Below, piece by piece: positions 5,086 through 61,591 of a stretch of DNA of 61,591 nucleotides. This DNA comes from Gammaproteobacteria bacterium (GTDB lineage Bacteria > Pseudomonadota > Gammaproteobacteria > S144-34), in contig JALSJE010000073.1 in NCBI GenBank assembly GCA_026989495.1, positions 1 to 61,591 of the forward strand, written 5' to 3'. Position numbers and translations under genes: made by a program. The notes under the pieces were generated by a model. The model was not told where the DNA came from and searched no databases. It worked only from the letters and a program-made list of their open reading frames with translations. Within the stretch, counting starts at the first letter, position 1, and each line of letters opens with the position of its first letter.

Positions 5086-6714
<1,629 letters not shown>

Positions 6715-7641: not shown

Positions 7642-7791
7642 TTTATGAAGGACATCAGAAATATTTAGTAGACCTTATCTATAATTTCTATTACTCTGCC
7701 CGCCGTAAGGTGATTGGGCCATACGGCCACACAGTGCGCGCGCCCCGCGCGGGCGGTGCAGGCCAACCATTCCAGACGAGGAAAGGCAGCA
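7642..7791 (+). promoter_or_regulatory. Promoter region of the form IA RuBisCO operon
   Basis: An AT-rich island (about 7621-7698) in an otherwise GC-rich stretch. It contains a perfect -10 hexamer TATAAT at 7680-7685, with no good -35 at 17 bp, which fits activator dependence. A CTTAT half-site at about 7674 resembles the palindrome in front of the second cbbR. CbbR is the obvious candidate activator. Confidence 0.55.
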
Positions 7792-9213: not shown

Positions 9214-9264
9214 GTGCCCCCGTCCCTGCCAGTCCACGACCCGAACTCAGAGGAGAGCTGCACG

Positions 9265-9684: not shown

Positions 9685-9693
9685 CGCGCGCAC

Positions 9694-9753
9694 GGCCCCG
9701 TCCGCCGGCGGGGCCCTTTCCCGGCCCGGCGTGCACGCCGGGCCGGGAAAGGG
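9694..9753 (+). terminator. Palindromic stem-loops between cbbS (form IA) and cbbQ
   Basis: Two hairpins overlap. GGCCCCG pairs with CGGGGCC at 9694-9715. A perfect 40-bp palindrome occupies 9714-9753; each half is CCCTTTCCCGGCCCGGCGTG or its complement. There is no T tract. The position after cbbLS suggests partial termination or protection of the cbbLS message, so that structural subunits exceed activase. Confidence 0.65.
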
Positions 9754-9807
9754 GGCTGCATCTCCTGACGAGCCAACCGCTAGCCACCGAGCTGAACGGA
9801 CACGTCC

Positions 9808-10620
9808 ATGACTGCAGCGATCGATACCGACCAGTACCTCATCCGGGAAGAGCCCTACTACCGGGCGGTGGGCGATGAGATCGAGCTGTTCGAAGCCGCC
9901 TACTCGGTGCGCATGCCCATGATGCTCAAGGGTCCGACAGGCTGCGGCAAGTCGCGCTTCGTCGAGTACATGGCCTGGCGGCTCAGGCGCCCGCTCATCA
10001 CCGTGGCCTGCAACGAGGACGTGACGGCCTCCGACCTGGTAGGGCGCTTCCTGCTGGACGCGCAGGGCACGCGCTGGCAGGACGGCCCCCTCACGGTGGC
10101 CGCGCGCATCGGCGCCATCTGCTACCTGGACGAGATCGTCGAGGCGCGCCAGGACACGATGGTTGTCATCCATCCGCTCACGGACCACCGCCGCTTGCTC
10201 CCGCTGGACAAGAAGGGTGAGGTGGTGCAGGCCCACCCGGACTTCCAGCTTGTCATCTCCTACAATCCGGGCTACCAGAGCCTGATGAAGGACCTCAAGC
10301 AGTCCACCAAGCAGCGTTTCGGCGCCCTCGACTTCGGCTATCCGGAGCCGGAGGTCGAGGCCGAGATCGTGGCGCAGGAGTCGGGCGTGGATCCCGCCAT
10401 CGCGGCGAAGCTGGTGCAGGTGGCCGAGCGCTCGCGCAACCTCAAGGGCCACGGGCTCGACGAGGGCATCTCCACGCGGCTGCTGGTCTACGCCGGCCAG
10501 CTCATCGCCAAGGGGATCGCGCCCGTGGCGGCCTGCCGGCTCGCGCTGGTGCGCCCGCTCACGGACGACCCCGACATGCGCGACACGCTCGACGCCGCGG
10601 TCCAGACCTTCTTCGGTTGA
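9808..10620 (+). CDS. cbbQ: RuBisCO activase AAA+ subunit CbbQ
   Basis: 270 aa, a MoxR-group AAA+ ATPase. Walker A GPTGCGKS is at 42-49 and Walker B AICYLDE at 103-109, with the sensor segment VISYNPGYQ. CbbQ forms a hexamer that works with one CbbO to release tight-binding sugar phosphates from form I (green) and form II RuBisCO. CbbQ is closely related to NorQ, but its position between form IA cbbS and cbbO settles the assignment. Confidence 0.94.
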
Positions 10621-10651
10621 GCGGGCGGCCTCGGGCGGCCCGCGCTGCGCC

Positions 10652-12982
10652 ATGACGGTCAGCGTCGACGAGTTCCGCGAGCAGCTCGAGGCCTGTGCGC
10701 CCGAGCTGCGCGACACCCTCGACGGCATCGTCCACGAGGCGAGCCGCGTGATGTCGCCCCAGGGGCTGTCGGACTTCCTCTCGGGCGCACGCGGCTTCTG
10801 CGAGCTCGGCCGCGGCAAGGATCTCGTGATGACCTACCTCGAGGAGATGCCCACGGTCGTGCGCGAGTGCGGCGAAGACGTCATTCGCGACTGCGTCAGC
10901 GCCGCCATGAAGCTCTCCTCCATGACCTCGGGCGCCGTGCTGGCGCTGCTCTTCGCCAGCCTGCCCACCGCCGCGCGCCGCCTCGGCGATCCCGAGCTCC
11001 TCCGCGGCTACCTGGCGCTGGTCCACCGCCTCGCCTCCAAGGCCCCGCGCGGCGTGCGCCCCATGCTCGAGCACGTCGACGAGCTCCTCTCCAAGGTCAC
11101 GCTCACGGGGCTGCGCCAGTGGGTGGACTTCGGCGCCGAGGCCTACCGCAGCGACCTTGCCGGCCAGGCGCGCTACTTCGGCCTGGAGACCGAGGACAGC
11201 CGCGCCATGCTGCGCCAGGTCCGCCGCGGCACTCTCTTCGTCGACGTCCAGCGCAAGCTCAACTTCTACCTGCGCGCCCTGTGGGGCCGCGACTTCTTCG
11301 TGCGCCCGACCATCGCCGACTACGAGGGCTTCCGCCCCTACATCGAGACGGGCGTGCTGCACGTGCCGGACGCGGTGGACGCGGTGGGCGAGGTGGGCGG
11401 CCTGGAGCTCTACCGTGCCATGGTCGCCCACATGGCCGCGCATCTGGTCTACACCCCCCGCCCCCAGGAGGGCGCGCCGCTGAGTCCGGCCCAGCGCTGG
11501 TTCGTCGGTCTGCTCGACGACGCGCGCGTGGAGCACTGCGCCGTGAGCCGCTTCCCGGGCCTGCGCACCCTCTGGCGTGCGCTGCTGGGCCTCGAGCGTC
11601 CCGGGGAGGTGGAGCACCCGAGCCTGCCCGTGCTCGAGCGCGTGGCGCTCGCCCTGCTCGACCCCGAGGCGCGTGTCGGCGACGAGGCGCTGGACGCGCT
11701 GGTACGGCGTTTCCACGCCGAGGTGCCGGAGCACGCAGAAGAGCCCGAGTTCGCATGGCACCTGGGGCTCGAGCTCCACAATGTCTTCGCCCGGCGCAAG
11801 GAGCTGCCGAGCCTGCGCATCCTCGAGAAGCTGCGCGTGCCCTACCGCGACGACAACCGCTTCATCTGGGAACGCGACAGCGAGTGGTGGGCGCAGCAGA
11901 TCGCCTATGTGCCCGAGAGCCAGCGGCAGGTGCGCAAGTACGTCTCGGCGGTGGACATGGCCTTCGAGGTGGACGTCGAGACCGCCGGCGACGACGCCCA
12001 GGAGGTCTGGATCTGCCGCGACGAGTTCTTCGACGACGACGGCGTCAGCTTCAACGAGCGCTTCGGCAAGGAGCCGGTCTCGGAGCCCTTCCACTACCAC
12101 GAGTGGGACTACCGCGTGCAGCTCTACCGTCCCGACTGGGTCACGGTCTACGAGCGCCGCCAACCCCGGGGCGATCCCGAGGCCATCGACCGAATCCTCG
12201 TCGAGCACAAGCCGGTCAGCTTCCGCATCCGGAGAATCATCGACCGGCTGCGGCCGCAGGGGCTGATCCGCGAGCGCAAGCTCGAGGACGGCGACGAGAT
12301 AGACCTCAACGCCGCGGTGGACGCGATGGTGGAGCTGCGCATCGGACGCTCGCCCGACCCGCGCATCACCTACCGCAACGTCATCCGCCGGCGGGATCTC
12401 GCGGTGGTGGTGCTGCTGGATCTTTCCGAGTCCACCAACGACCCCATCGACGGCGAGGAGGGCAAGACCATCCTCGACCTCACGCGCGAGGCCTGCGCCC
12501 TGGTCGCCACCGCCATCGAGGGCATCGGCGACGCCTACGCCATCCACGGCTTCGCCTCCGACGGCCGCCACGATGTCCACTACTACCGCTTCAAGGACTT
12601 CGACCAGCGCTTCGACGACGAGGTCAAGTCGCGCCTGGCGGGCATGAAGGGCGGGCTCTCGACGCGCATGGGCGCGGCGCTGCGCCACGCGGCGCTCGCG
12701 CATCTCGCGCGCCGCTCCGAGCGCCACCGCCTCATCCTGCTGGTGACCGACGGCGAGCCCGCCGACATCGACGAGCGCGACCCCCAGTACCTGCGCGTCG
12801 ACACCAAGAAGGCGGTGGAGGAGCTCCATACCATGGGGGTCATCACTTACTGCCTCACGCTGGATCCCGACGCCGACCAGTACGTGCAGCGCATCTTCGG
12901 GCCCAGCCACTACACGATCATCGACCACGTCCAGCGCTTGCCGGAGCGGCTGCCGCTGCTCTTCGCGAGCCTGACGCGCTAG
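10652..12982 (+). CDS. cbbO: RuBisCO activase adaptor CbbO
   Basis: 776 aa, the usual length. The C-terminal von Willebrand A domain has a MIDAS motif DLSES at about residue 590 and a TDGEP segment at about residue 698; a metal bound there contacts RuBisCO. The N-terminal half binds the CbbQ hexamer. It starts 31 bp after cbbQ. It is a paralogue of NorD, but the context is RuBisCO. Confidence 0.94.
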   Translation: MTVSVDEFREQLEACAPELRDTLDGIVHEASRVMSPQGLSDFLSGARGFCELGRGKDLVMTYLEEMPTVVRECGEDVIRDCVSAAMKLSSMTSGAVLALLFASLPTAARRLGDPELLRGYLALVHRLASKAPRGVRPMLEHVDELLSKVTLTGLRQWVDFGAEAYRSDLAGQARYFGLETEDSRAMLRQVRRGTLFVDVQRKLNFYLRALWGRDFFVRPTIADYEGFRPYIETGVLHVPDAVDAVGEVGGLELYRAMVAHMAAHLVYTPRPQEGAPLSPAQRWFVGLLDDARVEHCAVSRFPGLRTLWRALLGLERPGEVEHPSLPVLERVALALLDPEARVGDEALDALVRRFHAEVPEHAEEPEFAWHLGLELHNVFARRKELPSLRILEKLRVPYRDDNRFIWERDSEWWAQQIAYVPESQRQVRKYVSAVDMAFEVDVETAGDDAQEVWICRDEFFDDDGVSFNERFGKEPVSEPFHYHEWDYRVQLYRPDWVTVYERRQPRGDPEAIDRILVEHKPVSFRIRRIIDRLRPQGLIRERKLEDGDEIDLNAAVDAMVELRIGRSPDPRITYRNVIRRRDLAVVVLLDLSESTNDPIDGEEGKTILDLTREACALVATAIEGIGDAYAIHGFASDGRHDVHYYRFKDFDQRFDDEVKSRLAGMKGGLSTRMGAALRHAALAHLARRSERHRLILLVTDGEPADIDERDPQYLRVDTKKAVEELHTMGVITYCLTLDPDADQYVQRIFGPSHYTIIDHVQRLPERLPLLFASLTR

Positions 12983-29256: not shown

Positions 29257-29287
29257 TTGACCTGTACGCCGTGCACAGGTGTGCAAT
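29257..29287 (+). promoter_or_regulatory. MerR-type promoter before the Rieske operon
   Basis: -35 TTGACC (29257-29262) and -10 TGCAAT (29282-29287) are separated by 19 bp, the over-long spacer typical of MerR-activated promoters. The spacer holds the dyad ACCTGT-N9-ACAGGT (29260-29280). Two more sites with nearly the same sequence occur at 36518 and 37818. Confidence 0.75.
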
Positions 29288-29330
29288 GGGGCGACGTCGG
29301 CAGGGGTGTGGCCAGGGAGCGGGAGCCGCC

Positions 29331-29924
29331 ATGGACCGCGATCGCAGACGATGGCTCGCTGGTGCGGCCGTCCTGATGGGCGGCGCGGGGGTGGCCGCCC
29401 TGGCCGTGCCCTTCATCCGCTCGATGGGGCCGAGCGCCAGGGCGCGGGCGGCGGGGGCGCCGGTGCAGGTGGACTTCTCCCGCCTCGAGCCCGGCCAGCA
29501 GATCACGGTCGAATGGCGCGGGCGGCCCGTCTGGGTGATGCGCCGGACCAAACGCATGCTGGCCCGCATGCGCGAGCCCGAGCACCTGCGGCGGCTGCGC
29601 GATCCCGGCTCCCGTGTCGAGACCCAGCAGCCGCCCTACGCGCGCAACGCCACGCGCTCCATCCGCCCCGAGATCTTCGTGGTGATCGGCATCTGCACCC
29701 ACCTCGGGTGCGTGCCCACCTACCGGCCGGAGGAGTCGCCGCCCGACCTGGGTCCCGACTGGATCGGCGGCTATTTCTGCCCCTGCCACGGCTCGCGCTT
29801 CGACCTCGCGGGGCGGGTCTACAAGGGGGTGCCGGCACCCACCAACCTGGTGGTGCCGCCCCATCGCTATCTGTCGGATACCGTGGTCGAGGTGGGGGTG
29901 CATCCGCAGACGGAGGGTGGATGA
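29331..29924 (+). CDS. petA: Rieske iron-sulfur protein, bc1-complex type
   Basis: 197 aa. A basic N-terminus and one membrane segment (WLAGAAVLMGGAGVAALAVPF) give a Tat-like anchor. The [2Fe-2S] cluster motifs CTHLGC (122-127) and CPCHGS (150-155) are intact, as is the PPHRY segment. This is the fold of the ubiquinol-cytochrome c reductase subunit. However, no petB or petC follows: the next genes are a DUF5676-like membrane protein and a YHS protein, and the promoter is of MerR type. It may be a second, copper- or stress-linked Rieske protein rather than the housekeeping one. Confidence 0.85.
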   Translation: MDRDRRRWLAGAAVLMGGAGVAALAVPFIRSMGPSARARAAGAPVQVDFSRLEPGQQITVEWRGRPVWVMRRTKRMLARMREPEHLRRLRDPGSRVETQQPPYARNATRSIRPEIFVVIGICTHLGCVPTYRPEESPPDLGPDWIGGYFCPCHGSRFDLAGRVYKGVPAPTNLVVPPHRYLSDTVVEVGVHPQTEGG

Positions 29925-48770: not shown

Positions 48771-49660
48771 GCACCGCGGTCTTCTACGTTCTCGCCGCCG
48801 CGCTCGCGGCGGGGGCGGCGGCGACGGCCCTGGCTCCCCTCCTGCGGGCGCGGCACGGCGGGGCAGACCACCTGGACTCGCGGGCCCGGGCCCACCGCCG
48901 CCGGCTGGCCGAACTGGACGCCGAACACCGCGCCGGCCTGCTCTCGGCCCAGGACCATGCCGAGGCGAGGCGGGAAGTGGAAGCGGCGCTCGCGCGCGAG
49001 CTTGAGGCTGGCGAGGGCCCGGCACCATCCCGCCGGGGGCGGGCTGCCGCGGCAGCACTCGTCGCGGTCGCCCTCGCGGGAGGAATGGCTCTCTACGGCT
49101 GGCTGGGGCGTCCCGACCTCGCCGATCCCTCGCTCGCGGGACGCCTGCCGACGCCCGAGGCGCCGCCGCCCTCCGTCGAGGCCATGGTGGCACGGCTCGA
49201 GGCGCGGCTCAGAGAGCGACCCGAGGACGCGCAGGGCTGGATGATGCTCGGCCGCTCCTACCGGGTCCTGGGGCGGGCCGGAGATGCCGCGCGCGCCTAT
49301 GGCGAGGCCCTCCGGCGGGTGGAGGCCCCGTCTGCGGACCTGCTCGTGGCCTATGCAGAGGCACGCATCCTCGCGGCGGAGGGACAGGTGGACGGGCAGG
49401 CCGCCGGGGCGCTCTCCCGCGCCCTCACCCTGGAGCCGGATCACGCGCTGGGGCTGTGGCTCGACGGGCTCGCCGCCTTCCAGCGCGGCGACTACGCGCG
49501 AGCGCTCGCGCGCTGGGAGCGTGTGCTGAACACCGGCGGGGCTGCCGATCCCCGGGTGGAGTCCATGCTGCGCGAGCAGATCGCCGAGGCGCGCCGCCGC
49601 CTCGACGGCGCCGGCGCCTCATCGGCGCCGGCCGATGGCCAGCCCGAGCAGGAAAAGTAG
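48767..49660 (+). CDS. ccmI: Cytochrome c maturation chaperone CcmI
   Basis: 297 aa from a GTG overlapping ccmH. Two N-terminal membrane helices flank a cytoplasmic loop; a periplasmic TPR region follows (EDAQGWMMLGRSYRVLGRAGDAARAY). It binds apocytochrome C-termini. Its 3' end overlaps the convergent second ctaA by 42 bp. Confidence 0.88.
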   Translation: MSTAVFYVLAAALAAGAAATALAPLLRARHGGADHLDSRARAHRRRLAELDAEHRAGLLSAQDHAEARREVEAALARELEAGEGPAPSRRGRAAAAALVAVALAGGMALYGWLGRPDLADPSLAGRLPTPEAPPPSVEAMVARLEARLRERPEDAQGWMMLGRSYRVLGRAGDAARAYGEALRRVEAPSADLLVAYAEARILAAEGQVDGQAAGALSRALTLEPDHALGLWLDGLAAFQRGDYARALARWERVLNTGGAADPRVESMLREQIAEARRRLDGAGASSAPADGQPEQEK

Positions 49661-50404
49661 CTGCGCCCCGGTCCCGTGGGCGGTGGCGAGCGCCGCCGTG
49701 GGCACGGCGGTGGCCAGGAAGGCGCCCGTCGCAAGCTGGGCGGCCGCCGCCGCCGCAACCCCGGCGGCCAGGCCCGGACGGGCGGCGCGCAGGAGCCGCC
49801 ATGCCAGCATTCCGGCCGCGAGGGCGAGGCCCACCGCCACCGCCCGGTGGGCCAGATGGAGCGGGGCGGCGGGTCCCGCATCCGCGCCGCACAGAGGCAG
49901 CCCCGGGCAGTCGGCCACGGAGAAGCCCGCCGCGATCGTTCCCCCGTTCACGGCCGCGAGTCCCGCGAACGCGGCCACCAGCAGCCCGAGGCGCCGGACG
50001 CCGGGCTCCGGCGTCCCCGGCGCGGCGAGCCAGGCGAGGGCACCCGCCAGGGCCCAGCCGCCCAGCAGGTTAGCCAGCGTCACCGCATCGCGTGCCGCAT
50101 CGCCCGAGAGCGGCCCGATGAGCGCGAGCCCCGCCACGGCGCCGGCCGCCAGCGTGGCGGCGGCGCGCCCGTCGCGCGTGCGCCACGCCCGCACCAGCAG
50201 CCACGCCACCAGCACGAGGACGAGGAGGGCGAGCATGCGGTGGGCGGGGCGCAGCCCGGCAGGTATGGTGAAGACCGCTTCGCCGTAGCATGAGGGCCAC
50301 GGCTGGCAGCCCAGCCCCGAGCGCAGATGCCGCACGTATGCGCTCAGCGCACCCAGGACCACCGTCGCGGCCGCCGCCGCTGACGACCATTCTCTCAGCG
50401 ACAT
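49619..50404 (-). CDS. Second CtaA/Cox15-like haem A synthase, cysteine-pair type
   Basis: 261 aa, about eight membrane segments. SGLGCQPWPSCYG in the first loop and DCPGLPLCG in the second give two cysteine pairs, as in Bacillus-type CtaA. His ligands occur in PAHRML, AHRAVAVG and AHGTGAQ. It is divergent from the B-type oxidase operon and convergent with ccmI. Why this genome keeps two CtaA forms is unclear; it may serve the nearby oxidase, or oxidation of a different haem. Confidence 0.78.
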   Translation of the reverse strand: MSLREWSSAAAAATVVLGALSAYVRHLRSGLGCQPWPSCYGEAVFTIPAGLRPAHRMLALLVLVLVAWLLVRAWRTRDGRAAATLAAGAVAGLALIGPLSGDAARDAVTLANLLGGWALAGALAWLAAPGTPEPGVRRLGLLVAAFAGLAAVNGGTIAAGFSVADCPGLPLCGADAGPAAPLHLAHRAVAVGLALAAGMLAWRLLRAARPGLAAGVAAAAAAQLATGAFLATAVPTAALATAHGTGAQLLFLLGLAIGRRR

Positions 50405-50706
50405 GACGGCTCGGGACAGGGCGGGTGGCACCGAACGGCCCGCCGCCTGATGCCGGGCCGCCTGGGGGCTGCTCCTCTCCCGTCTCTCATCGCGTGCCGT
50501 GCGCGCGCGCCTCGCGGCTCCCCGGGGGCAGGGGTGAATCCCGACAGGCGGCCTCCTCCGGACCTGTGCCTTCTCCGAACACGACAGTGCAAGCCCTGCA
50601 GGGTGCGGCGGGCACGGCCGCCGGAGGGCCCCGCAACTGACATCGCGCAGAAGACGGCAGGTGCGGCCGCCGACTCCTGCGCGCCGCGGCATTGTGGCGC
50701 AATCAC

Positions 50707-50748
50707 TTGACCTCCATCAAGGAGATGTCTGCGTCCGAAAACTAGAAA
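50707..50748 (+). promoter_or_regulatory. FNR-type box and -10 before the B-type oxidase operon
   Basis: TTGAC-CTCC-ATCAA at 50707-50720 differs from the FNR consensus at one base. TAGAAA at 50743-50748 is a plausible -10; the box centre then falls 41.5 bp before the expected start, the class II activator position. The rest of the 416-bp gap 50405-50820 shows nothing else I recognise. Confidence 0.65.
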
Positions 50749-50820: not shown

Positions 50821-51012
50821 ATGGCAGAGCACGAAGACCAGGCGCGCAAAGAGGAAGGGGGGTCGATGGATCAGTTTGGGGCCGACGTGCCCGTCATGCA
50901 GCGCATCCTCGACAGCCCATTCCTGCTCCTGTTCCTGGGAATCACGATCCCCACCGTCTTCTATCTCGTCTGGGGAATCATGGAGATCATCAGCATCCCG
51001 ATCGCGAAATGA
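50821..51012 (+). CDS. Small single-helix oxidase subunit
   Basis: 63 aa from the ATG after GAGAGAGGAG. A charged N-terminus (EHEDQARKEEGG) precedes one membrane helix (FLLLFLGITIPTVFYLVWGIMEII). The size and position before the CuA subunit match subunit IIa-like peptides of B-type (ba3-like) oxidases. Confidence 0.72.
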   Translation: MAEHEDQARKEEGGSMDQFGADVPVMQRILDSPFLLLFLGITIPTVFYLVWGIMEIISIPIAK

Positions 51013-51076
51013 GGGGATGGGACGGGGGTGACGCCGGCAAGCGGCCGCGGAACGACAACAACCACGAGGTACGGTC

Positions 51077-51613
51077 ATGAGCGCGATTCTACCGCCTGCA
51101 CAGCGGCTCTGGTGGAAGGAGCCGGTCGAGCGCATCGAGATCGTCTGGATCGTCCTGGCGTTCGTCTGGTGCCTGATCCTCACCTTCATGATGCCCTACT
51201 GGCACGTCTTCGGTAAGCAGAACCTCTCCAACGAGGCCTACCGCACGACGCCGCAGGCCTTCGCCGCGAAGGCGCAGGCCGTGGTCGACAAGTGGAAGGT
51301 GCGCGAGGTGGGCGGCGTGCCCGTGGTCAGGCCCCCCGCCGGTGCCGATATCTACCTCGTCGGGAGGCTGTGGCAGTGGTGGCCGGCCTACGAGCTCAAG
51401 AAAGGCGAGAGCTACCGTCTGCACCTGTCGTCGCTCGACTGGCAGCACGGCTTCTCTCTCCAGCCGGTCAATATCAACACGCAGGTGCTGCCGGGGTACG
51501 AGATGGTGATCACGATAACGCCGAACGAGGCGGGCGAATACACCATCGTCTGCAACGAGTACTGCGGTATCGGGCACCACAACATGCTCGGCAAGATCTT
51601 CGTGGTGGACTGA
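51077..51613 (+). CDS. Haem-copper oxidase subunit II with CuA site
   Basis: 178 aa. One N-terminal membrane helix (IEIVWIVLAFVWCLILTFM), then a cupredoxin domain. CuA ligands are complete: H124 (DWQHGFSLQP), C159, E161, C163, H167 and M170 (CNEYCGIGHHNM). The short form with CNEYCG and one helix is typical of B-family oxidases. It takes electrons from a cytochrome c or cupredoxin. A CuA site argues for an electron-carrier donor even if the catalytic subunit reduces NO rather than O2. Confidence 0.92.
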   Translation: MSAILPPAQRLWWKEPVERIEIVWIVLAFVWCLILTFMMPYWHVFGKQNLSNEAYRTTPQAFAAKAQAVVDKWKVREVGGVPVVRPPAGADIYLVGRLWQWWPAYELKKGESYRLHLSSLDWQHGFSLQPVNINTQVLPGYEMVITITPNEAGEYTIVCNEYCGIGHHNMLGKIFVVD

Positions 51614-51626
51614 GGGGGGAGCAGCC

Positions 51627-53330
51627 ATGGCCGTCGATCGCACCTTCCGCATCTGCCCCCAGACGGGGCTCGCCTACCATCGGTCCGCCGAGCAGCTCAT
51701 GAAGGCCCATGCCGTCGCCGGCGTGGTGGCCCTGCTGGTGGGCGGTGTGCTCGCGCTGTTCGTGGCGCTCACCCGCTGGCCGGCCGTGCACATGCTGCCG
51801 GCGGACAGGTTCTACCAGGCGCTCACGGCGCACGGCATCGACATGCTGATCTTCTGGATCATCTTCTTCGAGATCGCCGTGCTCTACTTCACCTCCTCCA
51901 CCCTGCTGCGGGCCCGCCTGGCCTCGCCGCGCGTCGGGTGGGCCGGGTTCGCCCTTATGGTGATCGGCGCCTTGATCACCAACTGGGCCATTCTGCGCGG
52001 CAAATCCAGCGTGATGATGACCTCCTACGTGCCCATGCCGGCCGAGCCCAGCTTCTACCTGGGGCTCATCCTGTTCGCGGTGGGGGCGCTGATCGGCTGC
52101 TTCATCTTCCTCGCCACGCTGGTTATCGCGCGCTACGAGCGCACCTATGAAGGCTCCATCCCGCTGGTCACCTTCGGGGCGCTCACGGCCTGCATCATCG
52201 CCATCCTCACCATCGCCAACGGCGCCATCATCCTGATCCCCACCTGGCTGTGGTCGCTGGGATACATATCCAATATTGACCCCCTCATGTACCGCGTCGT
52301 GTGGTGGGCCTTGGGGCATCCTTCTCAGCAGATCAACGTCTCGGCCCATGTGGCAGTGTGGTACGCCATCGCGGCCATCGTCTTCGGCGCCAAGCCCATG
52401 TCGGAGAAGGTCAGCCGGATGGCCTTCCTGCTCTACATTCTGTTCCTGCAGCTCGCCTCGGCCCACCATCTGCTCGTCGACCCCGGGGTGAGCGCGGAAT
52501 GGAAGATGTTCAACACCAGCTACGCCATGTATCTGGCGGTGCTGGCGAGCATGATCCACGGGCTGACGGTCCCGGGCTCGATCGAGGTGGCCCAGCGGCG
52601 CAAGGGCTACACCAAGGGCCTGTTCGAGTGGCTGCGCAAGGCGCCGTGGGGCAACCCCGTCTTCTCGGGGATGTTCATCTCGCTGGTGGTGTTCGGTTTC
52701 CTCGGGGGTATCTCCGGGGTGGTGATGGGTACCGAGCAGATCAACATCATCATCCACAACACCATCTACGTGCCCGGTCACTTCCATGCCACCGTGGCCA
52801 CCGGCACCACGCTCGCCTTCATGGCGCTCACCTACTTCCTCATCCCCACGCTGTTCCGGCGTGAGCTCATCATGCAGGGCCTTGCCAAGTGGCAGCCCTA
52901 CATCTTCGGCATCAGCATGGCGGTGCTGTCGCTGTTCATGATGGGCGCAGGCACGCTGGGCGTGGCCCGCAGGCACTGGGACATGGCATTCGCCGGCAAC
53001 CCACTCGGCTTCGAGTATCCCACCACCGCCTATCTGATGATGGGTCTGGTGGGGATCGCGGGCGTCGGCGCGGTGATCGGCGGCGCGGCCTATATCCTTA
53101 TTACGGTGGGATCGATCCTCTTCGGGCGGAAGCTCCCCGCCGGCGAGATCACCACGCAGCCGGAGCCGGTGCGCGCCCCCGTATCCGAGGCCTTGGAGGG
53201 CCATGGCGGCGGGGTGGGTGTGCTGGAGGCGCGCGGCACCTTCGCGCTGGCCATGCTCCTGCTCGTGAGCTTCGTGATCTACTACTTCATCAACTGGAAG
53301 TACCTGGCCTCGGTCTGGGGCCTGAGCTGA
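51627..53330 (+). CDS. B-family haem-copper oxidase subunit I lacking the active-site tyrosine (sNOR-like?)
   Basis: 567 aa, about 13 membrane segments. Haem ligands are present: H69 (TAHGIDMLIFW) and the HFH pair H385/H387 (YVPGHFHATVA). CuB ligands H231 and H280/H281 (SAHHLLVDPG) are present. However, the segment that should read GHPxVY reads GHPSQQIN: the position four after H231 is Gln235, so the cross-linked tyrosine of O2-reducing B-type enzymes is missing, and no tyrosine replaces it nearby. NO reductases derived from this family (sNOR, known from norSY-senC clusters of nitrifiers) also lack it. Function as NO reductase or an atypical oxidase is open. Confidence 0.85.
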   Translation: MAVDRTFRICPQTGLAYHRSAEQLMKAHAVAGVVALLVGGVLALFVALTRWPAVHMLPADRFYQALTAHGIDMLIFWIIFFEIAVLYFTSSTLLRARLASPRVGWAGFALMVIGALITNWAILRGKSSVMMTSYVPMPAEPSFYLGLILFAVGALIGCFIFLATLVIARYERTYEGSIPLVTFGALTACIIAILTIANGAIILIPTWLWSLGYISNIDPLMYRVVWWALGHPSQQINVSAHVAVWYAIAAIVFGAKPMSEKVSRMAFLLYILFLQLASAHHLLVDPGVSAEWKMFNTSYAMYLAVLASMIHGLTVPGSIEVAQRRKGYTKGLFEWLRKAPWGNPVFSGMFISLVVFGFLGGISGVVMGTEQINIIIHNTIYVPGHFHATVATGTTLAFMALTYFLIPTLFRRELIMQGLAKWQPYIFGISMAVLSLFMMGAGTLGVARRHWDMAFAGNPLGFEYPTTAYLMMGLVGIAGVGAVIGGAAYILITVGSILFGRKLPAGEITTQPEPVRAPVSEALEGHGGGVGVLEARGTFALAMLLLVSFVIYYFINWKYLASVWGLS

Positions 53331-53384: not shown

Positions 53385-54296
53385 ATGCGGGCGGGATCGG
53401 CGGCACGGGTGCAGGCGGAAGCAGATGCGGGCAGGCTGCAGGCCTTCCTCGGCCTCTGGAAGCCCCGCATCGGAATGGCCATCGGCTTCACCGGGGTCAC
53501 GGGCTACGCGCTGGCCGCCGGTCCCGCCTTCGATCCCGTGCTCGCCGCCTGGCTGTTTGCGGGGATGATGCTCGCGGCGGGAGGTGCCGGCGCCTTCAAC
53601 CAGTATGTGGAGCGCGACCTGGACGCGCGCATGCGCCGCACGCGCTCGCGTCCCTTCGTCACGGGCGAGTTCCGTGCCGGACCGCACTGGCTCATGGCCA
53701 TCGCGCTCGTCACGGGCACCGGGGTGGCGCTCACCGCCTGGCGCGCAGGCCCGTGGGCCGCCGTGGGGACGGCGCTCGGCACGCTCGTCTACGCGGTGGT
53801 CTACACCCTGTGGCTCAAGCGGCGCACGCATTGGAACATCGTGATCGGGGGGCTGGCGGGGAGCCTGGCCCTGCTCGCGGGCGCGGGGGCCGTCTCGGGC
53901 CAGGCCATGGGTGCGCCGCTGGTGGTGGCCTTCGCCGTGGTCCTGTTCCTCTGGACCCCCTCGCACTTCTGGAGCCTCGCCATCGCCCTGCGCAGCGACT
54001 ACGAGGCGGCGGACGTGCCCATGCTGCCGGCGGTGGCCGGCCCGCGGCATACCGCGCGTGTGGTGCTCGCCAACACGGTGGTCCTGGTGGCGGCCAGCTT
54101 CGTCCCGGCCGCCCTGGGGCTCGGCCCCGTCTACGGTCTGGTGGCCGCGGGCGCCGGGGCACTGTTCCTCTGGCACAATCTGCGCCAGGTGCGCGCACCC
54201 ACGCCCGCGTCCGGGCGCGCCAACTTCCGCGTCTCTCTCGTGCATCTCGCCCTGCTGCTGGGGGCGGCCACGCTCGCCGCCACCGGTATCTGGTAG
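53385..54296 (+). CDS. ctaB: Haem O synthase (protohaem IX farnesyltransferase)
   Basis: 303 aa from the ATG at 53385. UbiA fold with nine helices. Prenyl-diphosphate motif NQYVERDLDARMRRTRSRP, then SHFWSLAIALRSDYEAADVPM. It adds farnesyl to haem B; with CtaA this yields haem A for the oxidase. It follows subunit I by 54 bp. Confidence 0.92.
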   Translation: MRAGSAARVQAEADAGRLQAFLGLWKPRIGMAIGFTGVTGYALAAGPAFDPVLAAWLFAGMMLAAGGAGAFNQYVERDLDARMRRTRSRPFVTGEFRAGPHWLMAIALVTGTGVALTAWRAGPWAAVGTALGTLVYAVVYTLWLKRRTHWNIVIGGLAGSLALLAGAGAVSGQAMGAPLVVAFAVVLFLWTPSHFWSLAIALRSDYEAADVPMLPAVAGPRHTARVVLANTVVLVAASFVPAALGLGPVYGLVAAGAGALFLWHNLRQVRAPTPASGRANFRVSLVHLALLLGAATLAATGIW

Positions 54297-54307: not shown

Positions 54308-55081
54308 ATGCGTGCGCTGGCGACGCTCCTGCTCGCGGCCGTGGCGCTGCCGGCGGCGGCGCTCGACCCCGAGCGCGCGCTGGCCGTGAGCCAGGCCGCC
54401 ATCGGCCGGCAGGTCTCCGACCACGTGCTCGTGCGCGCCGACGGCACCACGCTGCGGCTCTCGGAGCTCGCCGGCGTGCCCCTCGTGGTGAGCCTGGTCT
54501 ACACCGGCTGCTACCGGATCTGCCCCACCACCACGCGGCATCTGCTGCGGATGGCGCGGCTTGCGCGCAAGGCCCTGGGGCCCGGGCGCTTCAAGGTGCT
54601 GGTGATCGGCTTCGACACCGCACAGGACACCCCCGAGGCCATGCAGGTCTACGCGCGCAAGCAGGGCGCGGCAGGCGAGCCGGACTGGCTCTTCCTGAGC
54701 GCCGACGCCCGCACCGCCCGGGCGCTCGCCCGCGAGCTGGGCTTCGTCTATGAGCCCTCCCCGCGCGGATTCGACCACCTGCTCCAGGTGAGCGTGCTCG
54801 ACGGCGAGCGCCGCGTCTACCGCCAGGTCTACGGCGACGCCTTCACGGCGCCCCAGCTCGTCGAGCCCCTCAAGGAGCTGGCCCTGGGCCGGCGTGCGGA
54901 CAAGGGCCTGCTCGCCCACCTCGCGGATCGCGTGCGGCTCTTCTGCACCACCTACGACCCGTCCACGGGGGCGTACCGCTTCGACTACTCGCTCTTCATC
55001 GGCCTCACCATCGCGGCCCTCATCCTCCTGTCCACGCTGGCCTTCCTCGTGCACGAGCTGCGCCGCCGGGGCGCTTCTTGA
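54308..55081 (+). CDS. SCO1/SenC copper chaperone
   Basis: 257 aa. Signal peptide, thioredoxin-like domain with GCYRICP (CxxxC) and the distal His in GFDHLLQ, plus a C-terminal membrane helix (FIGLTIAALILLSTLAFLV), which is less common in SCO. It inserts copper into the CuA centre. Last gene of the oxidase operon; sNOR clusters also carry senC. Confidence 0.9.
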   Translation: MRALATLLLAAVALPAAALDPERALAVSQAAIGRQVSDHVLVRADGTTLRLSELAGVPLVVSLVYTGCYRICPTTTRHLLRMARLARKALGPGRFKVLVIGFDTAQDTPEAMQVYARKQGAAGEPDWLFLSADARTARALARELGFVYEPSPRGFDHLLQVSVLDGERRVYRQVYGDAFTAPQLVEPLKELALGRRADKGLLAHLADRVRLFCTTYDPSTGAYRFDYSLFIGLTIAALILLSTLAFLVHELRRRGAS

Positions 55082-55120
55082 CCCGGATCATGGTTGGGCC
55101 GCTCACGCGGGCCCTAGCAT
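55078..55120 (+). promoter_or_regulatory. FNR-like box and -10 before the cytochrome b/FeS operon
   Basis: TTGAC-CCGG-ATCAT at 55078-55091 overlaps the sco stop codon. TAGCAT at 55115-55120 is a plausible -10 with near class II spacing. About 400 bp of leader without a credible gene (55121-55524; an Arg-rich frame there looks spurious) precedes the GTG at 55525. Confidence 0.5.
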
Positions 55121-55524: not shown

Positions 55525-57099
55525 GTGCAGGCGCTGCTGAGGCTGCTGCGGCGGGGATTCGAGCCCCTGGAGGCGGTCGGCTACCGCCTCTTCGGCGGCG
55601 AGAGCCCCTTCCACCATCTGGGCGCGCTCACCATCTACCTGTTCTGGATCGTGCTGGTGAGCGGCATCTACGTCTTCGCCTTCTACCACACGAGCGTCGC
55701 GGGGGCCTACGAGTCGGTCCAGCGCCTGACCGAGGAGCAGTGGTGGCTGGGCGGGGTCATGCGCAGCCTCCACCGCTACGCCTCGGATGCGGCCGTGCTC
55801 ACCCTGGGGCTGCACATCTTCCGCGAACTCTCGCGTGACCACCACCGCGGGCCGCGCTGGTTCTCCTGGATCACCGGGGTGCCCAACCTGTGGATGGTCT
55901 ACATGCTGGGCATCACGGGCTACTGGATGGTGTGGGACGAGCTCGCCCAGTACATCGCCGTCGCCACCGCCGAGCTCCTCGACTGGCTGCCCATCTTCAC
56001 CGACCCCATGGCGCGCAACTTCCTCACGGAGGGCAGCCTGGGCGACCGCTTCTTCACCCTGCTCGCCTTCCTGCACCTGCTGGGCCTGCCCCTCATTCTG
56101 GTGGGCACCGTCTGGCTCCACATCCAGCGCATCAGCCGCCCGCGCATCAACCCGCCGAGGCGGCTGGCGCTGGGGACCCTGCTGGCCCTGCTCGCGCTTT
56201 CCTTCGTGCAGCCGGCGTCGAGCCACGCTCCGGCAGACCTCACGCGCGCGCCCCAGGTGCTCAGCCTCGACTGGTTCTACCTCGCCATCTATCCGCTCTA
56301 CGACCTGTTCGGTGCTGCGGTGGTGTGGGGGGTGCTGTGGGGCGGGACGCTGCTGCTGTGCGCGCTGCCGTGGCTGCCGCCGCGGCGGCGCGAGTCCGTG
56401 GCCGAGGTGGATCCGGCCTGGTGCAACGGCTGCCGGCGCTGCTTCGGCGACTGCCCCTATGGCGCCATCGAGATGGCGCCCCATCCCGACAAGCGCGGCA
56501 AGGAGATCTCGGTGGTCGACCCTGCCCTGTGCGTGAGCTGCGGGATCTGCGAGGGGGCCTGTCCCTCGGCCACCCCCTTCCGCAGCGTGCGAGAGCTGGT
56601 GAGCGGCATCGAGCTGCCCCAGTACCCGGTGCAGGTGCTGCGCGAGCGCGCGCGCGCTGCGGCCCGGCGCCTGAGCGGGCCGGTGCGCATCGTGGTTTTC
56701 GGGTGCCGGCATGCGGCCGACCCCGCGCAGGTGACGGGGCCGGACACCGCCTCGGTCCCTCTGGTGTGCGCAGGGATGCTGCCGCCTTCCCTCGTCGAGT
56801 ACCTCATCCGCCGCGAGGGCGTGGACGGGGTGGTGATCTCCGGCTGCCGCGCCGGGGACTGCGAGTACCGTCTCGGCACGCGCTGGGTCGAGGAGCGGCT
56901 GGCGGGCACGCGCGAGCCGCATCTGCGGCGCAACGTGCCGCGCGAGCGCATCGCCGTGTGCTGGAGCGGCCCAGACGCGGCCATGCTGCGTGCGTGCGTG
57001 GACGGGCTGCGCGCGCGGCTGGCCGCGCGGTCGCGCGCGGACGAGGCCGGCGGCGGGGCGCGTCCACCCGCGGCGGCGGCCGGAGGCGGCCATGGCTGA
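55525..57099 (+). CDS. Cytochrome b6-like / 2x[4Fe-4S] / MvhD fusion protein
   Basis: 524 aa from a GTG after GAGGAGGAGGG. Residues 1-290 form a cytochrome b6-like domain with two bis-His haem b sites: H-x13-H (SLHRYASDAAVLTLGLHIF) and H-x14-H (FLHLLGLPLILVGTVWLHI). Residues about 295-355 hold two CxxCxxCxxxC clusters (CNGCRRCFGDCP and CVSCGICEGACP). The C-terminal part is MvhD/hydrogenase-delta-like, with FGCRH, PLVCAGM, GVVISGCRAGDCEYRLG and VCWSG cysteines for a [2Fe-2S] centre. This makes a single chain linking quinone-side haems to iron-sulfur centres on the cytoplasmic side. Its partners are the next two genes; no hydrogenase or heterodisulfide reductase is nearby. Confidence 0.88.
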   Translation: MQALLRLLRRGFEPLEAVGYRLFGGESPFHHLGALTIYLFWIVLVSGIYVFAFYHTSVAGAYESVQRLTEEQWWLGGVMRSLHRYASDAAVLTLGLHIFRELSRDHHRGPRWFSWITGVPNLWMVYMLGITGYWMVWDELAQYIAVATAELLDWLPIFTDPMARNFLTEGSLGDRFFTLLAFLHLLGLPLILVGTVWLHIQRISRPRINPPRRLALGTLLALLALSFVQPASSHAPADLTRAPQVLSLDWFYLAIYPLYDLFGAAVVWGVLWGGTLLLCALPWLPPRRRESVAEVDPAWCNGCRRCFGDCPYGAIEMAPHPDKRGKEISVVDPALCVSCGICEGACPSATPFRSVRELVSGIELPQYPVQVLRERARAAARRLSGPVRIVVFGCRHAADPAQVTGPDTASVPLVCAGMLPPSLVEYLIRREGVDGVVISGCRAGDCEYRLGTRWVEERLAGTREPHLRRNVPRERIAVCWSGPDAAMLRACVDGLRARLAARSRADEAGGGARPPAAAAGGGHG

Positions 57100-57598
57100 G
57101 CGCGCTGCGGCGCGGATGCTCGGGCAGGCGCTGGCCTATGCGGCATTCGCCGCTTTCGTGGGCCTTTTCGCCGTGCGCCCGGCCTGGACCCGCCTCCCGC
57201 CGGATACCGCCGAGCTCAAGGTGAGCATCGTGCACCGCGGCCAGCCCGTGGGCGAGTGCCGTGAGCGCACCGAGGAGGAGCTCGCGCGCCTGCCGCCCAA
57301 CATGCGCATCCGCGTGGTGTGTCCGCGCGAGCGGTCGCCGCTCGAGCTCGAGATCTACCTCGACGGGCGGCTGCTGCACCGTGAGATCAAGGCTCCCAGC
57401 GGGCTCCGGCACGACGGGCCGGCCTACATTTACCACCGCTTCGCCGTGCCGGCAGGGGAGCACATCGTGCGAGTCCGCCTGCGCGACAGCGTGCGCGTGG
57501 AAGGATATCCCTACGAGCGCGAGGAGCGGGTGCGGCTCGACCCCGGACGCTCGCTCGCTGTGGATTTCGATCCCCTCCAGGGTATCCGGTTCCGCTGA
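57093..57598 (+). CDS. Membrane-anchored unknown protein of the cytochrome b/HCO operon
   Basis: 168 aa from an ATG overlapping the previous stop by 7 bp. One N-terminal helix (LGQALAYAAFAAFVGLFAV) and a periplasmic domain rich in beta strands (LELEIYLDGRLLHREI, RFAVPAGEHIVRVRLRD). One cysteine pair-like set (GECRERT and VVCPRE). No family recognised. The conserved position between two respiratory subunits suggests a structural subunit of the same complex. Confidence 0.7.
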
Positions 57599-57607
57599 GG
57601 TGCACAG

Positions 57608-59020
57608 ATGGAGGAGGTGAGCGGCATATTGCGGACGGGGGAGCGCGTGCCCGCGCGCACGCGTGTCGTGCAGGCCTACGCGCTGCCGGTGCCCGCGGGC
57701 GTGGCCGCAGCGCTCGCGCGCGGCTGGCTCCGGCTGGGTGTGGGGGCGCTGCTGCTGTCGGGGCTCTTCTCCGTCCTCATCGTGCTGTCCCGCGCCCCGG
57801 GCGTGGCCGAGCGCCTGCCGTGGACCAACCTCTTCCACACGGCGCTGGTCGTGCATGTGGACCTGTCGGTGCTGGTGTGGTTCCTGGCCTTCGCGGGCGT
57901 GCTCTGGAGCCTGCACGGGGCCGAGCGTGCGCCCGCGCTCGGACGTACGGCGCTTGCACTGTCCACTGTCGGCACGGGGGTGATGGCCGCCGCCCCCTTC
58001 CTGGGCGCGGACCGGCCGCTCATGAGCAACTACATCCCGGTGCTGGACCATCCCCTGTTCCTGGCGGGGCTGCTCCTCTTCGGCGCGGGCTGCCTCGTGC
58101 AGCTCGCGCGCGCGCTGACGCTGGCTCCACCCGTGGGGCCTGCCATCACGGGTGAGGGTGCGCTGCGCTTCGGCATCAACACGGCCTCGGTAGCGGCGGG
58201 CATGGCCGTGCTGGCCTTCGCCTGGTCCTGGCTGCTGCTGCCGGAATTTCTTGCCGGCAAGGAGCGTTACGAGCAGCTCTTCTGGGGCGGCGGGCACGTG
58301 CTGCAGTACGTGCACACCCAGCTCATGCTGGTGGCCTGGCTGTGGCTCGCCCAGCAGGCGGGCCTGCGCCTCGCGCTCACGCCCCGGGTGGTGGTGGTGC
58401 TGTTCGCCTGGGGGCTGGTCACCGTCTTCCTCACCCCGCTCATCTATCTCGCCTTCGAATTCGGCTCGGTCCCGCACCTGCGGGCCTTCACCTGGATGAT
58501 GGCCTTCGGCGGAAGCCTCGCCGCCGCCCCCATCGGGCTCGCCGTGCTGGTGGGGCTGGCCCGGGCCGGCCCTGCCACGGGCGATGGGTCCGTCGCGCGC
58601 AGCGGGCTTGCGGCCTCGCTGCTGCTCTTCGGAGTGGGCGGGCTGCTCGGCTTCGCCATCGAGGGCGGAGACGTGCGCGTGCCGGCCCATTACCACGGGA
58701 GCATCGTCGGCATCACCCTCGCCTTCATGGCGCTCGCCTACCTGCTCATGCCGTGCCTGGGGCTCGGCCGGCCGCCGGTGCGGCTGGCGCGCTGGCAGCT
58801 GCGCCTCTACGCCGGCGGGCAGCTCCTGCACGTGCTGGGGCTGGCCTGGTCCGGCGGCTACGGCGTGCCGCGCAAGACGCCCGGCGCCGCCCAGGGGCTC
58901 GACACGCTGCCCGAGATCCTCGGCATGGCGGTGATGGGCGTGGGCGGGCTGCTCGCCATCGTCGGCGGCATGCTCTTCGTGGTCGCGGCGGGCATGGCCC
59001 TGGCGCGTCACACGAATTGA
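57608..59020 (+). CDS. HCO-superfamily subunit I-like protein lacking the CuB HisHis pair
   Basis: 470 aa, about 12 membrane segments. Haem ligands of the superfamily are present: H83 in helix 2 (VVHVDLSVLVWFLAF) and H361/H363 in the late helix (VPAHYHGSIVGITLAFMAL). Helix 6 reads WGGGHVLQYVHTQLM, with H230 and a tyrosine four residues later (Y234). The next helix, where oxidases have HisHis for CuB, reads LTPLIYLAFEFGSVPH and has none. The active-site metal must therefore be absent or ligated differently (for example by the Glu/His nearby). It lacks a CuA subunit; electrons may come from the cytochrome b/FeS fusion. NO reduction is one possibility. Confidence 0.82.
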   Translation: MEEVSGILRTGERVPARTRVVQAYALPVPAGVAAALARGWLRLGVGALLLSGLFSVLIVLSRAPGVAERLPWTNLFHTALVVHVDLSVLVWFLAFAGVLWSLHGAERAPALGRTALALSTVGTGVMAAAPFLGADRPLMSNYIPVLDHPLFLAGLLLFGAGCLVQLARALTLAPPVGPAITGEGALRFGINTASVAAGMAVLAFAWSWLLLPEFLAGKERYEQLFWGGGHVLQYVHTQLMLVAWLWLAQQAGLRLALTPRVVVVLFAWGLVTVFLTPLIYLAFEFGSVPHLRAFTWMMAFGGSLAAAPIGLAVLVGLARAGPATGDGSVARSGLAASLLLFGVGGLLGFAIEGGDVRVPAHYHGSIVGITLAFMALAYLLMPCLGLGRPPVRLARWQLRLYAGGQLLHVLGLAWSGGYGVPRKTPGAAQGLDTLPEILGMAVMGVGGLLAIVGGMLFVVAAGMALARHTN

Positions 59021-59058
59021 TCCAGATCAATACTGGCGGTGGGGGTGGCCCGCATGCT
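59017..59058 (+). promoter_or_regulatory. Perfect FNR box and -10 before the first fnr gene
   Basis: TTGATCCAGATCAA at 59017-59030 is a perfect FNR/Anr/Dnr consensus and overlaps the stop of the HCO-like gene. CATGCT at 59053-59058 is a weak -10 at class II spacing. The fnr-like gene starts at 59091, so autoregulation is likely. Confidence 0.7.
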
Positions 59059-59090: not shown

Positions 59091-59849
59091 ATGCCCCGGC
59101 CCACGCGAGCCACCGCGAGCGGAGACGCCGGCACCACGCTGCGTTGCCGGCGCTGCTGCTTCGGCCCCCTGTGCCTGCCGGGCGGTGTCCAGCCCGCCGA
59201 GGTCGCGCTGCTGGACGGCGTGGTGGAGGCGCGACGCACCCTCGCCGCAGGCGAGGTCCTGGTGCAGGCGGATGCCCCTTTCCGCGCCCTCTACGCCGTG
59301 CGCTCCGGCTCGCTCAAGTCGCAGGTCCGCTGCGGCGAGCGCGTCCAGGTGCTGGCGTTCCATTTTCCGGGCGAGCTCGCCGGGTGGGATGGCATCGGCC
59401 ATGGGCGCCACCGCGTCGAGGTGGTGGCCCTGGAGCCGTCCTCGGTGTGCTTGATCCGCTATCACCGCCTGATGGGGCTCGCCGACCGCATCCCGCGCCT
59501 CTACCGCCGCCTTCTGGCGCTGATGGCGGGCGCCACACAGTGCGACTGGACCGTGGCCGTGGCCGGGCCGGGTGGTGACGCCGAGCAGCGCGTGCTCGCT
59601 TTCCTGCTCAACCTGGCCGAGCGCCGGCTGGCGGCGGGGCTCGCGGTGGACGAGGTGCGCCTCGGCATGTCGCGCGACGACATCGCCAGCTACCTCGGCC
59701 TGGCCCCGGAGACGGTCAGCCGCGCCATGGTGCGCGTGAGCCGCAGCGGTCTGGTGCGCATCCACCGCCGGCGGGTGCGCTTCGGCGACCTCGAAGCTCT
59801 GCGCGCCGCCGTCCTCTCCGGGTGCCCGGAGCTCGCCGCCGCCGAATGA
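59091..59849 (+). CDS. FNR-type oxygen-responsive regulator (first)
   Basis: 252 aa. N-terminal cysteines C19, C22 and C28 (CRRCCFGPLC) have the C-x2-C-x5-C spacing of FNR; the fourth is C120 (EPSSVCLIRY). These should hold an oxygen-labile [4Fe-4S] cluster, and an extra C23 lies within. A cyclic-nucleotide-like sensor domain follows, then the helix-turn-helix MSRDDIASYLGLAPETVSRAMVRV. The ETVSR recognition helix fits TTGAT sites such as the one upstream. It probably drives the two HCO operons. Confidence 0.9.
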   Translation: MPRPTRATASGDAGTTLRCRRCCFGPLCLPGGVQPAEVALLDGVVEARRTLAAGEVLVQADAPFRALYAVRSGSLKSQVRCGERVQVLAFHFPGELAGWDGIGHGRHRVEVVALEPSSVCLIRYHRLMGLADRIPRLYRRLLALMAGATQCDWTVAVAGPGGDAEQRVLAFLLNLAERRLAAGLAVDEVRLGMSRDDIASYLGLAPETVSRAMVRVSRSGLVRIHRRRVRFGDLEALRAAVLSGCPELAAAE

Positions 59850-60263: not shown

Positions 60264-60305
60264 TTGATCTCGGTCATTTATCCGGGTGCGGCGTGCGCCT
60301 AGGGT
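60264..60305 (+). promoter_or_regulatory. FNR-like box and -10 before the second fnr gene
   Basis: TTGAT-CTCG-GTCAT at 60264-60277 has a perfect left half. TAGGGT at 60300-60305 is a weak -10 at class II spacing. The same right-half variant GTCAT occurs in the box at 14442. Confidence 0.45.
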
Positions 60306-60480: not shown

Positions 60481-61266
60481 ATGAACGAGTCCAGCAACGT
60501 GACGCCGCTGCTGACGCCGGCCAACCGCCGGCGCTTCCCGCCCTACTGCCCGCCGGTCGAGTGCACCGCGTGCACACTGCTCGCGCTGTGCCGCATGGCG
60601 GGGCTGGGTGTGGACGAGCGGCGTCTGGCCGACACGGTGGGGCGGCGCCGGCCCGTGGCCCGCGGCGCCGAGGTGCGCCCGCGCCGGGTGCGCTCGGTGG
60701 TGGCAGTCCGCTCCGGGGCCCTCAAGAGCGAGATGCTGCGGCCCGGGGGCGAGCCCCAGATCGTGGCCTTCCACCTGCCGGGGGAGCTGGTCTCGCTGCC
60801 GGCGGCGGACGAGGCCGGCGAGCCCGAGCTGCGCACGGTGGCGCTGATGCCCTCGGAGGTGTGCGAGCTGCCGGTGCAGGAGCTCCACGGCTTCGACGCC
60901 GAGGAGTCCGCCCGTTTTCATCTGCGCCTGGCCCAGGAGGCCACAGGGGCGCTGCTGGCCGCCCAGCGGACGCTCGCCTGGACCCGCAGCGAGGGTGCCG
61001 AGGCGCGGCTTGCCGGCTTCCTCCTCGACATCGCCGCACGCTTCGCCAGCCGTGACCTGCCGGCGCAGGCCTTCCGGCTGCCCATGCCGCGGCGCGACAT
61101 CGCCAACTTCCTCGGGCTGGCGGAGGAGACGGTCTGCCGCCTGTTCCGGCGCTTCCACGGCCGCGGCTGGATCGCCGTCAGCGGCAAGCGCATCGTCATA
61201 CGCGACCCCTCCAGGCTGCGGGCGGTGGCCGCCGGCGCAGCCCCGCGCGAGGGCGACAGGGGCTGA
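60481..61266 (+). CDS. FNR-type regulator (second), altered recognition helix
   Basis: 261 aa. Cysteines C28, C31 and C37 (CTACTLLALC) have FNR spacing, with an extra C23; the fourth is C128 (PSEVCELP). The helix-turn-helix reads MPRRDIANFLGLAEETVCRLFRRF: the usual E-x2-S-R has Cys for Ser, so site preference may differ from TTGAT. Like FNR it should be active without oxygen. It is co-oriented with the first fnr gene, 630 bp away. Confidence 0.88.
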   Translation: MNESSNVTPLLTPANRRRFPPYCPPVECTACTLLALCRMAGLGVDERRLADTVGRRRPVARGAEVRPRRVRSVVAVRSGALKSEMLRPGGEPQIVAFHLPGELVSLPAADEAGEPELRTVALMPSEVCELPVQELHGFDAEESARFHLRLAQEATGALLAAQRTLAWTRSEGAEARLAGFLLDIAARFASRDLPAQAFRLPMPRRDIANFLGLAEETVCRLFRRFHGRGWIAVSGKRIVIRDPSRLRAVAAGAAPREGDRG

Positions 61267-61275
61267 GGACGGGCG

Positions 61276-61591
61276 TCAGTCGCCCACCACCCGCACGGTC
61301 CCCCGCATCTCTTCATGGGGGCCGCAGCGATACGTGTAGCGTCCGGGCCGCTCGAAGCGGCGTTCGTAGCTCTCTCCGGGAAAGAAGTACTCCGGCTCGG
61401 GCTCACCCGACTCCTCGAACCAGACGCTGTGATACTGGCGCCGTTCCCGGTTGATCCAGCGGACGGTTGTTCCAGGTCTGATCACGATCTCCGCGGGCTC
61501 GAAGGCGTAACGCCGTATCTCCACGATCACGACGTCGCCGTGACCGTCACCGGCTGCCCCAGCCCACGCTGGTGTCGATGCCCATCCGAGC
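61276..61591 (-). CDS. Periplasmic cupredoxin (partial, runs off the window)
   Basis: The reading frame is open to the window end, so the 5' end is missing. The visible part begins within a signal peptide (LGWASTPAWAGAAGDG) and continues as a small blue-copper domain. Type 1 copper ligands are present: His in QYHSVWF, then Cys, His and Met in YRCGPHEEMRG. It may donate electrons to, or accept from, the nearby enzymes. It is convergent with the second fnr gene. Confidence 0.82.
   Translation of the reverse strand, partial: LGWASTPAWAGAAGDGHGDVVIVEIRRYAFEPAEIVIRPGTTVRWINRERRQYHSVWFEESGEPEPEYFFPGESYERRFERPGRYTYRCGPHEEMRGTVRVVGD

Follow-up and report, generated by a model that had tools for sequence, protein, structure and literature searches.

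The closest described system is eNOR, a recently recognised nitric oxide (NO) reductase of the haem-copper oxidase (HCO) superfamily that is also named ba3-a1. It is biochemically characterised and related to the B-family oxidases; gNOR, nNOR, sNOR and bNOR are likewise described as B-family-related (PMC11388526). Two features are diagnostic, a Gln replacing the active-site Tyr and a cupredoxin subunit II gene directly upstream (PMC8756737), and the enzyme is reported to reduce NO using reduced cytochrome c (PMC8879329). eNOR is a widespread, little-studied producer of nitrous oxide (N2O). The stretch analysed here (the window) comprises 61,591 nucleotides of a Gammaproteobacteria bacterium (S144-34; contig JALSJE010000073.1 of assembly GCA_026989495.1). 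It carries a putative eNOR operon and, behind it, three genes designated g1, g2 and g3: g1 encodes a cytochrome b6-like protein extended by two [4Fe-4S] cluster motifs and an MvhD domain, g2 a membrane-anchored protein, and g3 a protein with the fold of HCO subunit I.

The favoured reading, which we hold to be probable with some reserve, is that g1-g2-g3 forms the downstream portion of an eNOR operon under FNR control, in which g1-g2 would be a redox partner dedicated to the enzyme and g3 a haem-binding accessory without catalysis of its own. It is the best explanation of the observed anatomy, conservation, linkage, co-occurrence and shared FNR boxes. In the portion of the published eNOR account available for comparison, the operon holds subunits I, II and SCO, and neither a cytochrome b/iron-sulphur (FeS)/MvhD chain nor g2 or g3 is described. 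The enzyme itself is already known; the accessory module appears to be undescribed, no description of it having been met in the accessible part of the eNOR literature, a comparison that lies outside the original eNOR report.

Linkage and co-occurrence with eNOR

The protein encoded from 51627 retains the HisHis pair and all haem ligands, and the column table places a Gln at its active-site Tyr position; the motif GHxxQQxN is invariant in this protein and about 50 relatives. Since the Gln signature and the CuA subunit II gene directly upstream match the published diagnostic, we infer that 51077 and 51627 encode an eNOR, which they also resemble in their B-family relationship; NO reductase activity would follow from the signature and the literature. 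An earlier sequence-based annotation (the original prediction) had taken g1-g3 for a stand-alone complex without CuA. No CuA subunit is indeed encoded inside 55525-59020, but a CuA subunit II and a complete HCO subunit I belong to the same array just upstream (50821-53330), and the stand-alone complex is not supported.

The three genes are tightly packed: g1 and g2 overlap by 8 nt, and g3 starts 10 nt past the end of g2. Their conserved linkage had been set beforehand as a test, and it holds across phyla. The array CuA-eNOR-(CyoE)-SCO-g1-g2-g3 recurs, with rearrangements, in Gammaproteobacteria, a Myxococcota metagenome-assembled genome, Nitrospirota, SAR324, Balneolota and Calditrichota, and a Planctomycetota contig carries g3-CuA-eNOR.

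A survey of 369 genomes of the same class detected g3 in 45, eNOR in 33 (leaving aside one additional weak match) and both in 27. g3 is thus present in 27/33 eNOR-positive genomes against 18/336 others, and g1, scored in 80 of these genomes, in 32/33 eNOR-positive against 0/47 eNOR-negative ones; the genomes are interrelated, so Fisher p-values overstate the independence of these co-occurrences, and the positives span many families. Within this class, g1-g2 thus accompanies eNOR specifically. The g3 family spreads wider than eNOR.

Genes for NirS-family (haem-d1) proteins follow the same distribution: 30/33 eNOR-positive genomes have them, as do 9/17 that are g3-positive and eNOR-negative and 2/30 with neither. 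In many genomes nirS lies near eNOR or g3 on the same contig, and on the Thermus plasmid pTF24b an eNOR homologue adjoins nirS. The genome under study encodes NosZ, NirF/NirN, NirJ and NirDL-type genes, while narG and NirK gave no match over the cut-off. In a same-genus genome, a NirS-length match stands beside NirF. The seven COX1-family proteins of the own genome are two aa3, two cbb3, eNOR, g3 and a g3 paralogue, which leaves eNOR as its only recognisable NO reductase.

FNR-type boxes are a further shared feature. Searching for the FNR/Dnr box TTGAY-N4-RTCAA with at most one mismatch returned 9 sites in the window (0.98 expected), and 15 of 18 eNOR loci have a perfect box 250-520 bp ahead of the CuA gene (0.04 expected). 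At the level of promoter sequence, these boxes show predicted FNR-type control of the eNOR operon. The two FNR regulators that the original prediction places downstream are confirmed, and its proposal of FNR-type control is supported.

Anatomy of g1, g2 and g3

Pfam matches for g1 are Cytochrome_B (4.6e-16), Fer4_7 (1.7e-10) and FlpD/MvhD (8.8e-9). In an alignment of 15 relatives drawn from several phyla, H83, H97, H184 and H199 (spacing 14 and 15) are invariant and define two bis-His haem b sites, and the eight Cys of the ferredoxin motifs and the three of the MvhD domain show no variation; the anatomy originally proposed for this chain was correct. A PDB profile search places cytochrome b6 at the top, and the C-terminal half matches HdrA (the HdrA2 C-terminus) and MvhD chains. 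Where a PEWY-type Qo motif is expected, the alignment of relatives gives a D-[WY]-F variant, DWFY in g1. Loop charges and the analogy with cytochrome b6/subunit IV predict a cytoplasmic FeS-MvhD part and a periplasmic DWFY motif.

The chain therefore resembles cytochrome b6 of b6f and cytochrome b of bc1 in fold family, in its four haem-site His and in the PEWY-like DWFY, but differs from them in its two [4Fe-4S] motifs and MvhD domain and in an operon that, within the window, encodes neither a Rieske nor a c-type partner. The gene at 29271-29924 specifies a Rieske protein whose twin-arginine translocation signal is of the UCR type, and the neighbouring ORFs scanned gave no cytochrome b partner. 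With Hdr-Mvh and Qmo, g1 shares FeS and MvhD electron-transfer domains; it differs in that its cytochrome b is of the b6 type and in that no HdrA-type flavin subunit is found among the operon genes, the remaining genome not having been searched. Three of the surveyed genomes hold a second g1-like match that spans only cytochrome b (approximately residues 6-293) and lacks the FeS/MvhD portion.

The g2 protein consists of an N-terminal anchor, as anticipated, and a beta-rich domain. It is fused to g1 as one chain in Balneolota and Calditrichota. Assignment to SCO, Rieske or cupredoxin families was rejected for lack of any family, sequence or fold match, and a weak BT_MCC_alpha Pfam match below the cut-off was disregarded.

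For g3, the Pfam COX1 match is 1.7e-10. Its AlphaFold2 model has the 12-helix HCO subunit-I fold (predicted local distance difference test 89.3, predicted TM-score 0.90), and all top Foldseek matches of this model are HCO subunits I, with a TM-score of 0.73 to ba3 oxidase. A PDB sequence search with g3 alone gave no match and a profile was needed, with which subunit I of Thermus thermophilus ba3 oxidase is the best solved-structure match. A plasmid search with g3 found none. The haem-ligand residues His83, His361 and His363, together with His230 and Gln233, are kept wherever relatives have a residue there.

The HisHis columns, defined by the upstream HCO (51627), hold His in 0/58 and 1/58 g3 sequences; the residues found instead are mostly Ile/Leu and Tyr/Leu. 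Of the three His expected at the distal CuB/FeB site of a catalytic HCO, only His230 is kept. Misalignment was considered and rejected: an HH between helices VI and X occurs in 1/58 sequences, off the helix-VII position. The predicted subunit I with both haem-ligand sets and no HisHis pair is upheld, whereas the H230-x3-Y234 motif proposed with it survives in its His alone, Tyr234 being a local feature replaced by Phe in 46/58 relatives. Compared with T. thermophilus ba3 oxidase subunit I, g3 shares the fold but lacks the CuB HisHis pair and a conserved Tyr.

In a tree with aa3, ba3, cbb3, cNOR and eNOR references (gNOR, nNOR, sNOR and bNOR not included; eNOR represented by Thermus/Thermomicrobium and other relatives found here, not by the published reference set), 67 g3 proteins form one clade on a long stem (SH-aLRT 100) outside all five groups. 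Identification as cbb3 (CcoN) or cNOR (NorB) is rejected on this basis, in line with the view that g3 is no ordinary member of either. An apparent sister position to eNOR was set aside as evidence because of the long branches.

The genomic company of the family is varied. Relatives adjoin aa3 oxidase genes in ten loci, mostly with CyoE, CtaA or SCO, CcsB/ResB-like genes in four and rpoH-like genes in two (the latter two names assigned by eye). The paralogue in the own genome (42% identity) comes after aa3 subunit I and also lacks the HisHis pair; aa3 oxidase, this paralogue and NosZ stand together on contig C53 (L017, 5170-14635). In one surveyed genome (G334; L120, 9680-11050) a cNOR-type norB comes after g3, which implies that some genomes hold eNOR and cNOR in one cluster.

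Possible roles of the module

In the proposed mechanism, the eNOR operon would clear NO produced by nitrite reductase. Electrons would be accepted by the CuA subunit (51077) and delivered to subunit I (51627), whose haem/metal site would reduce NO to N2O, as the eNOR signature and the literature suggest. The cytochrome b part of g1 would link the quinone pool, via the haems b, to the two [4Fe-4S] clusters and the cytoplasmic MvhD domain. Together with g2, g1 would most likely support NO respiration by transferring electrons between quinone and a cytosolic carrier, either iron-sulphur or flavin, with partner and direction inferred. The quinone-type cytochrome b chemistry, multi-gene redox module and link to NO of the original prediction are all retained here. 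As g3 relatives are also found beside aa3 oxidases and CtaA/CyoE/SCO genes, g3 is read as a non-catalytic haem-bearing protein, which might assist CuA-type HCOs as an accessory or by handling haem, with no NO reduction of its own. The parallel with the oxidase assembly factors SURF1 and CtaG is functional only, drawn from the genomic company of aa3 oxidase, CyoE, CtaA and SCO; these factors are not homologous to g3, an HCO paralogue.

Several observations weigh against this reading. A 443-bp gap and possibly an own promoter precede g1, and the MvhD domain could be matched to no cytosolic partner. A Defluviimonas plasmid has the full array except g3, and g1, g2 and g3 are all missing from the eNOR loci of Thermus and Thermomicrobium, so that some eNORs do without the module. 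As eNOR reportedly uses reduced cytochrome c (PMC8879329), it does not need a partner linked to quinone in order to turn over. Finally, nirS was not recovered in the own draft genome, whose haem-d1 contig ends near these genes. On the Defluviimonas plasmid, a hemerythrin-family gene follows g2 at the place of g3 (L108, 17526-17930).

An alternative of appreciable though clearly lower probability is that the whole module serves eNOR biogenesis or repair, g1 supplying electrons for maturation of the haem and copper sites and g3 holding haem or passing it to subunit I. The position of the module after CyoE and SCO fits this proposal, as does the occurrence of g3 relatives beside aa3 oxidase with CyoE/CtaA/SCO and beside the CcsB/ResB-like genes; moreover, the haem A route to subunit I is still an open question (PMC9145763). 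However, its two haems, two clusters and MvhD domain make g1 elaborate for a reductase that acts in maturation, and Thermus eNOR does without the module.

It is doubtful that g3 acts apart from g1-g2 as a haem-based NO/O2 sensor or scavenger protecting HCOs. Such a function would suit its high-spin haem site, which is mononuclear and has a conserved His and Gln on the distal side, and g3 is found in genomes without eNOR or g1; the protein has no signalling domain.

A catalytic g3 is unlikely, and the version favoured by the original prediction, in which g3 is itself a non-canonical HCO that reduces NO or another gas, is given slightly less credence than a sensor. Both haem-ligand sets and the distal His230 and Gln233 are kept in all relatives, and g3 is linked to nir genes. 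Yet the two other distal-metal His are absent throughout the family, a complete eNOR with HisHis pair, Gln and CuA partner is encoded in the same operon, and haem-d1 genes are absent from several g3 genomes.

More speculative still, and given very little weight, is an electron-bifurcating, quinol-oxidising g1-g2 partner: from quinol oxidised at the DWFY site on the periplasmic face, one electron would go to cytochrome c, CuA and NO, the other through the haems b to the cytoplasmic [4Fe-4S]-MvhD part, NO reduction would drive formation of low-potential reductant in an autotroph, and g3 would be a haem-bearing member of the complex. That g1-g3 is an independent oxidoreductase merely neighbouring eNOR is scarcely credible: the gap and box ahead of g1 would allow it, but the linkage is repeated across phyla, g1-eNOR co-occurrence is near one-to-one, and for g1 the counts of 32/33 and 0/47 contradict it.

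If g1-g2 is the redox partner favoured here, NO reduction would be coupled to the quinone and cytosolic FeS pools by a cytochrome b/FeS/MvhD chain that is nearly obligate in this class and shows the same linkage in distant phyla, which could change the understanding of eNOR energy conservation. The g3 family, with its distal metal site lost and haem sites kept, near eNOR and aa3 assembly genes, is a candidate for haem delivery to subunit I.

Gene map and neighbouring genes

Table 1. Genes and FNR-type boxes of the eNOR locus in window coordinates.
Feature	Coordinates	Strand	Evidence or remark
CtaA-like (haem A synthase family) gene, divergent to the operon	49619..50692	-	Pfam COX15-CtaA 8.6e-12
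Perfect FNR/Dnr-type box TTGACCTCCATCAA, ahead of the eNOR operon	50707..50720	+	
Small membrane protein, 63 aa, likely small eNOR subunit	50821..51012	+	Positional match: similar small ORF in the Defluviimonas and Thermus eNOR operons
Putative eNOR CuA subunit II, C-x3-C-x3-H-x2-M motif	51077..51613	+	COX2/cupredoxin Pfam matches and sequence
Putative eNOR catalytic subunit I	51627..53330	+	COX1 1.7e-68; HisHis present, Gln235 replacing the active-site Tyr
CyoE-type haem O synthase	53385..54296	+	UbiA 2.8e-49
SCO1/SenC copper chaperone	54308..55081	+	SCO1-SenC 3e-9
FNR-type box, one mismatch, in the gap before g1	55078..55091	+	
g1, cytochrome b6-like (6 predicted transmembrane helices) with two [4Fe-4S] and MvhD domain	55525..57099	+	GTG start
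g2, membrane-anchored beta-rich protein, without a fold-family match	57092..57598	+	
g3, HCO subunit-I fold, both haem-ligand sets, without helix-VII HisHis	57608..59020	+	
Perfect FNR-type box before the first fnr gene	59017..59030	+	
FNR-family regulator, C-x2-C-x5-C and further Cys	59091..59849	+	NCBIfam Fnr 1.1e-45, under cut-off
FNR-type box, one mismatch, before the second fnr gene	60264..60277	+	
Second FNR-family regulator, C-x2-C-x5-C and further Cys	60481..61266 (start by judgement)	+	NCBIfam Fnr 6.5e-37, under cut-off

At the window end, a small plastocyanin/azurin-type cupredoxin ORF lies on the minus strand (61276-61530). In another surveyed locus (L054, 3710-5011), a 434-aa membrane protein with no Pfam or PDB sequence match is encoded between haem-d1 genes and a CtaA-like gene. 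Far upstream in the window (6706-12982), a LysR gene is followed by apparent RubisCO large and small subunits and CbbQ/CbbO, named from sequence and gene order only; these genes suggest an autotroph.

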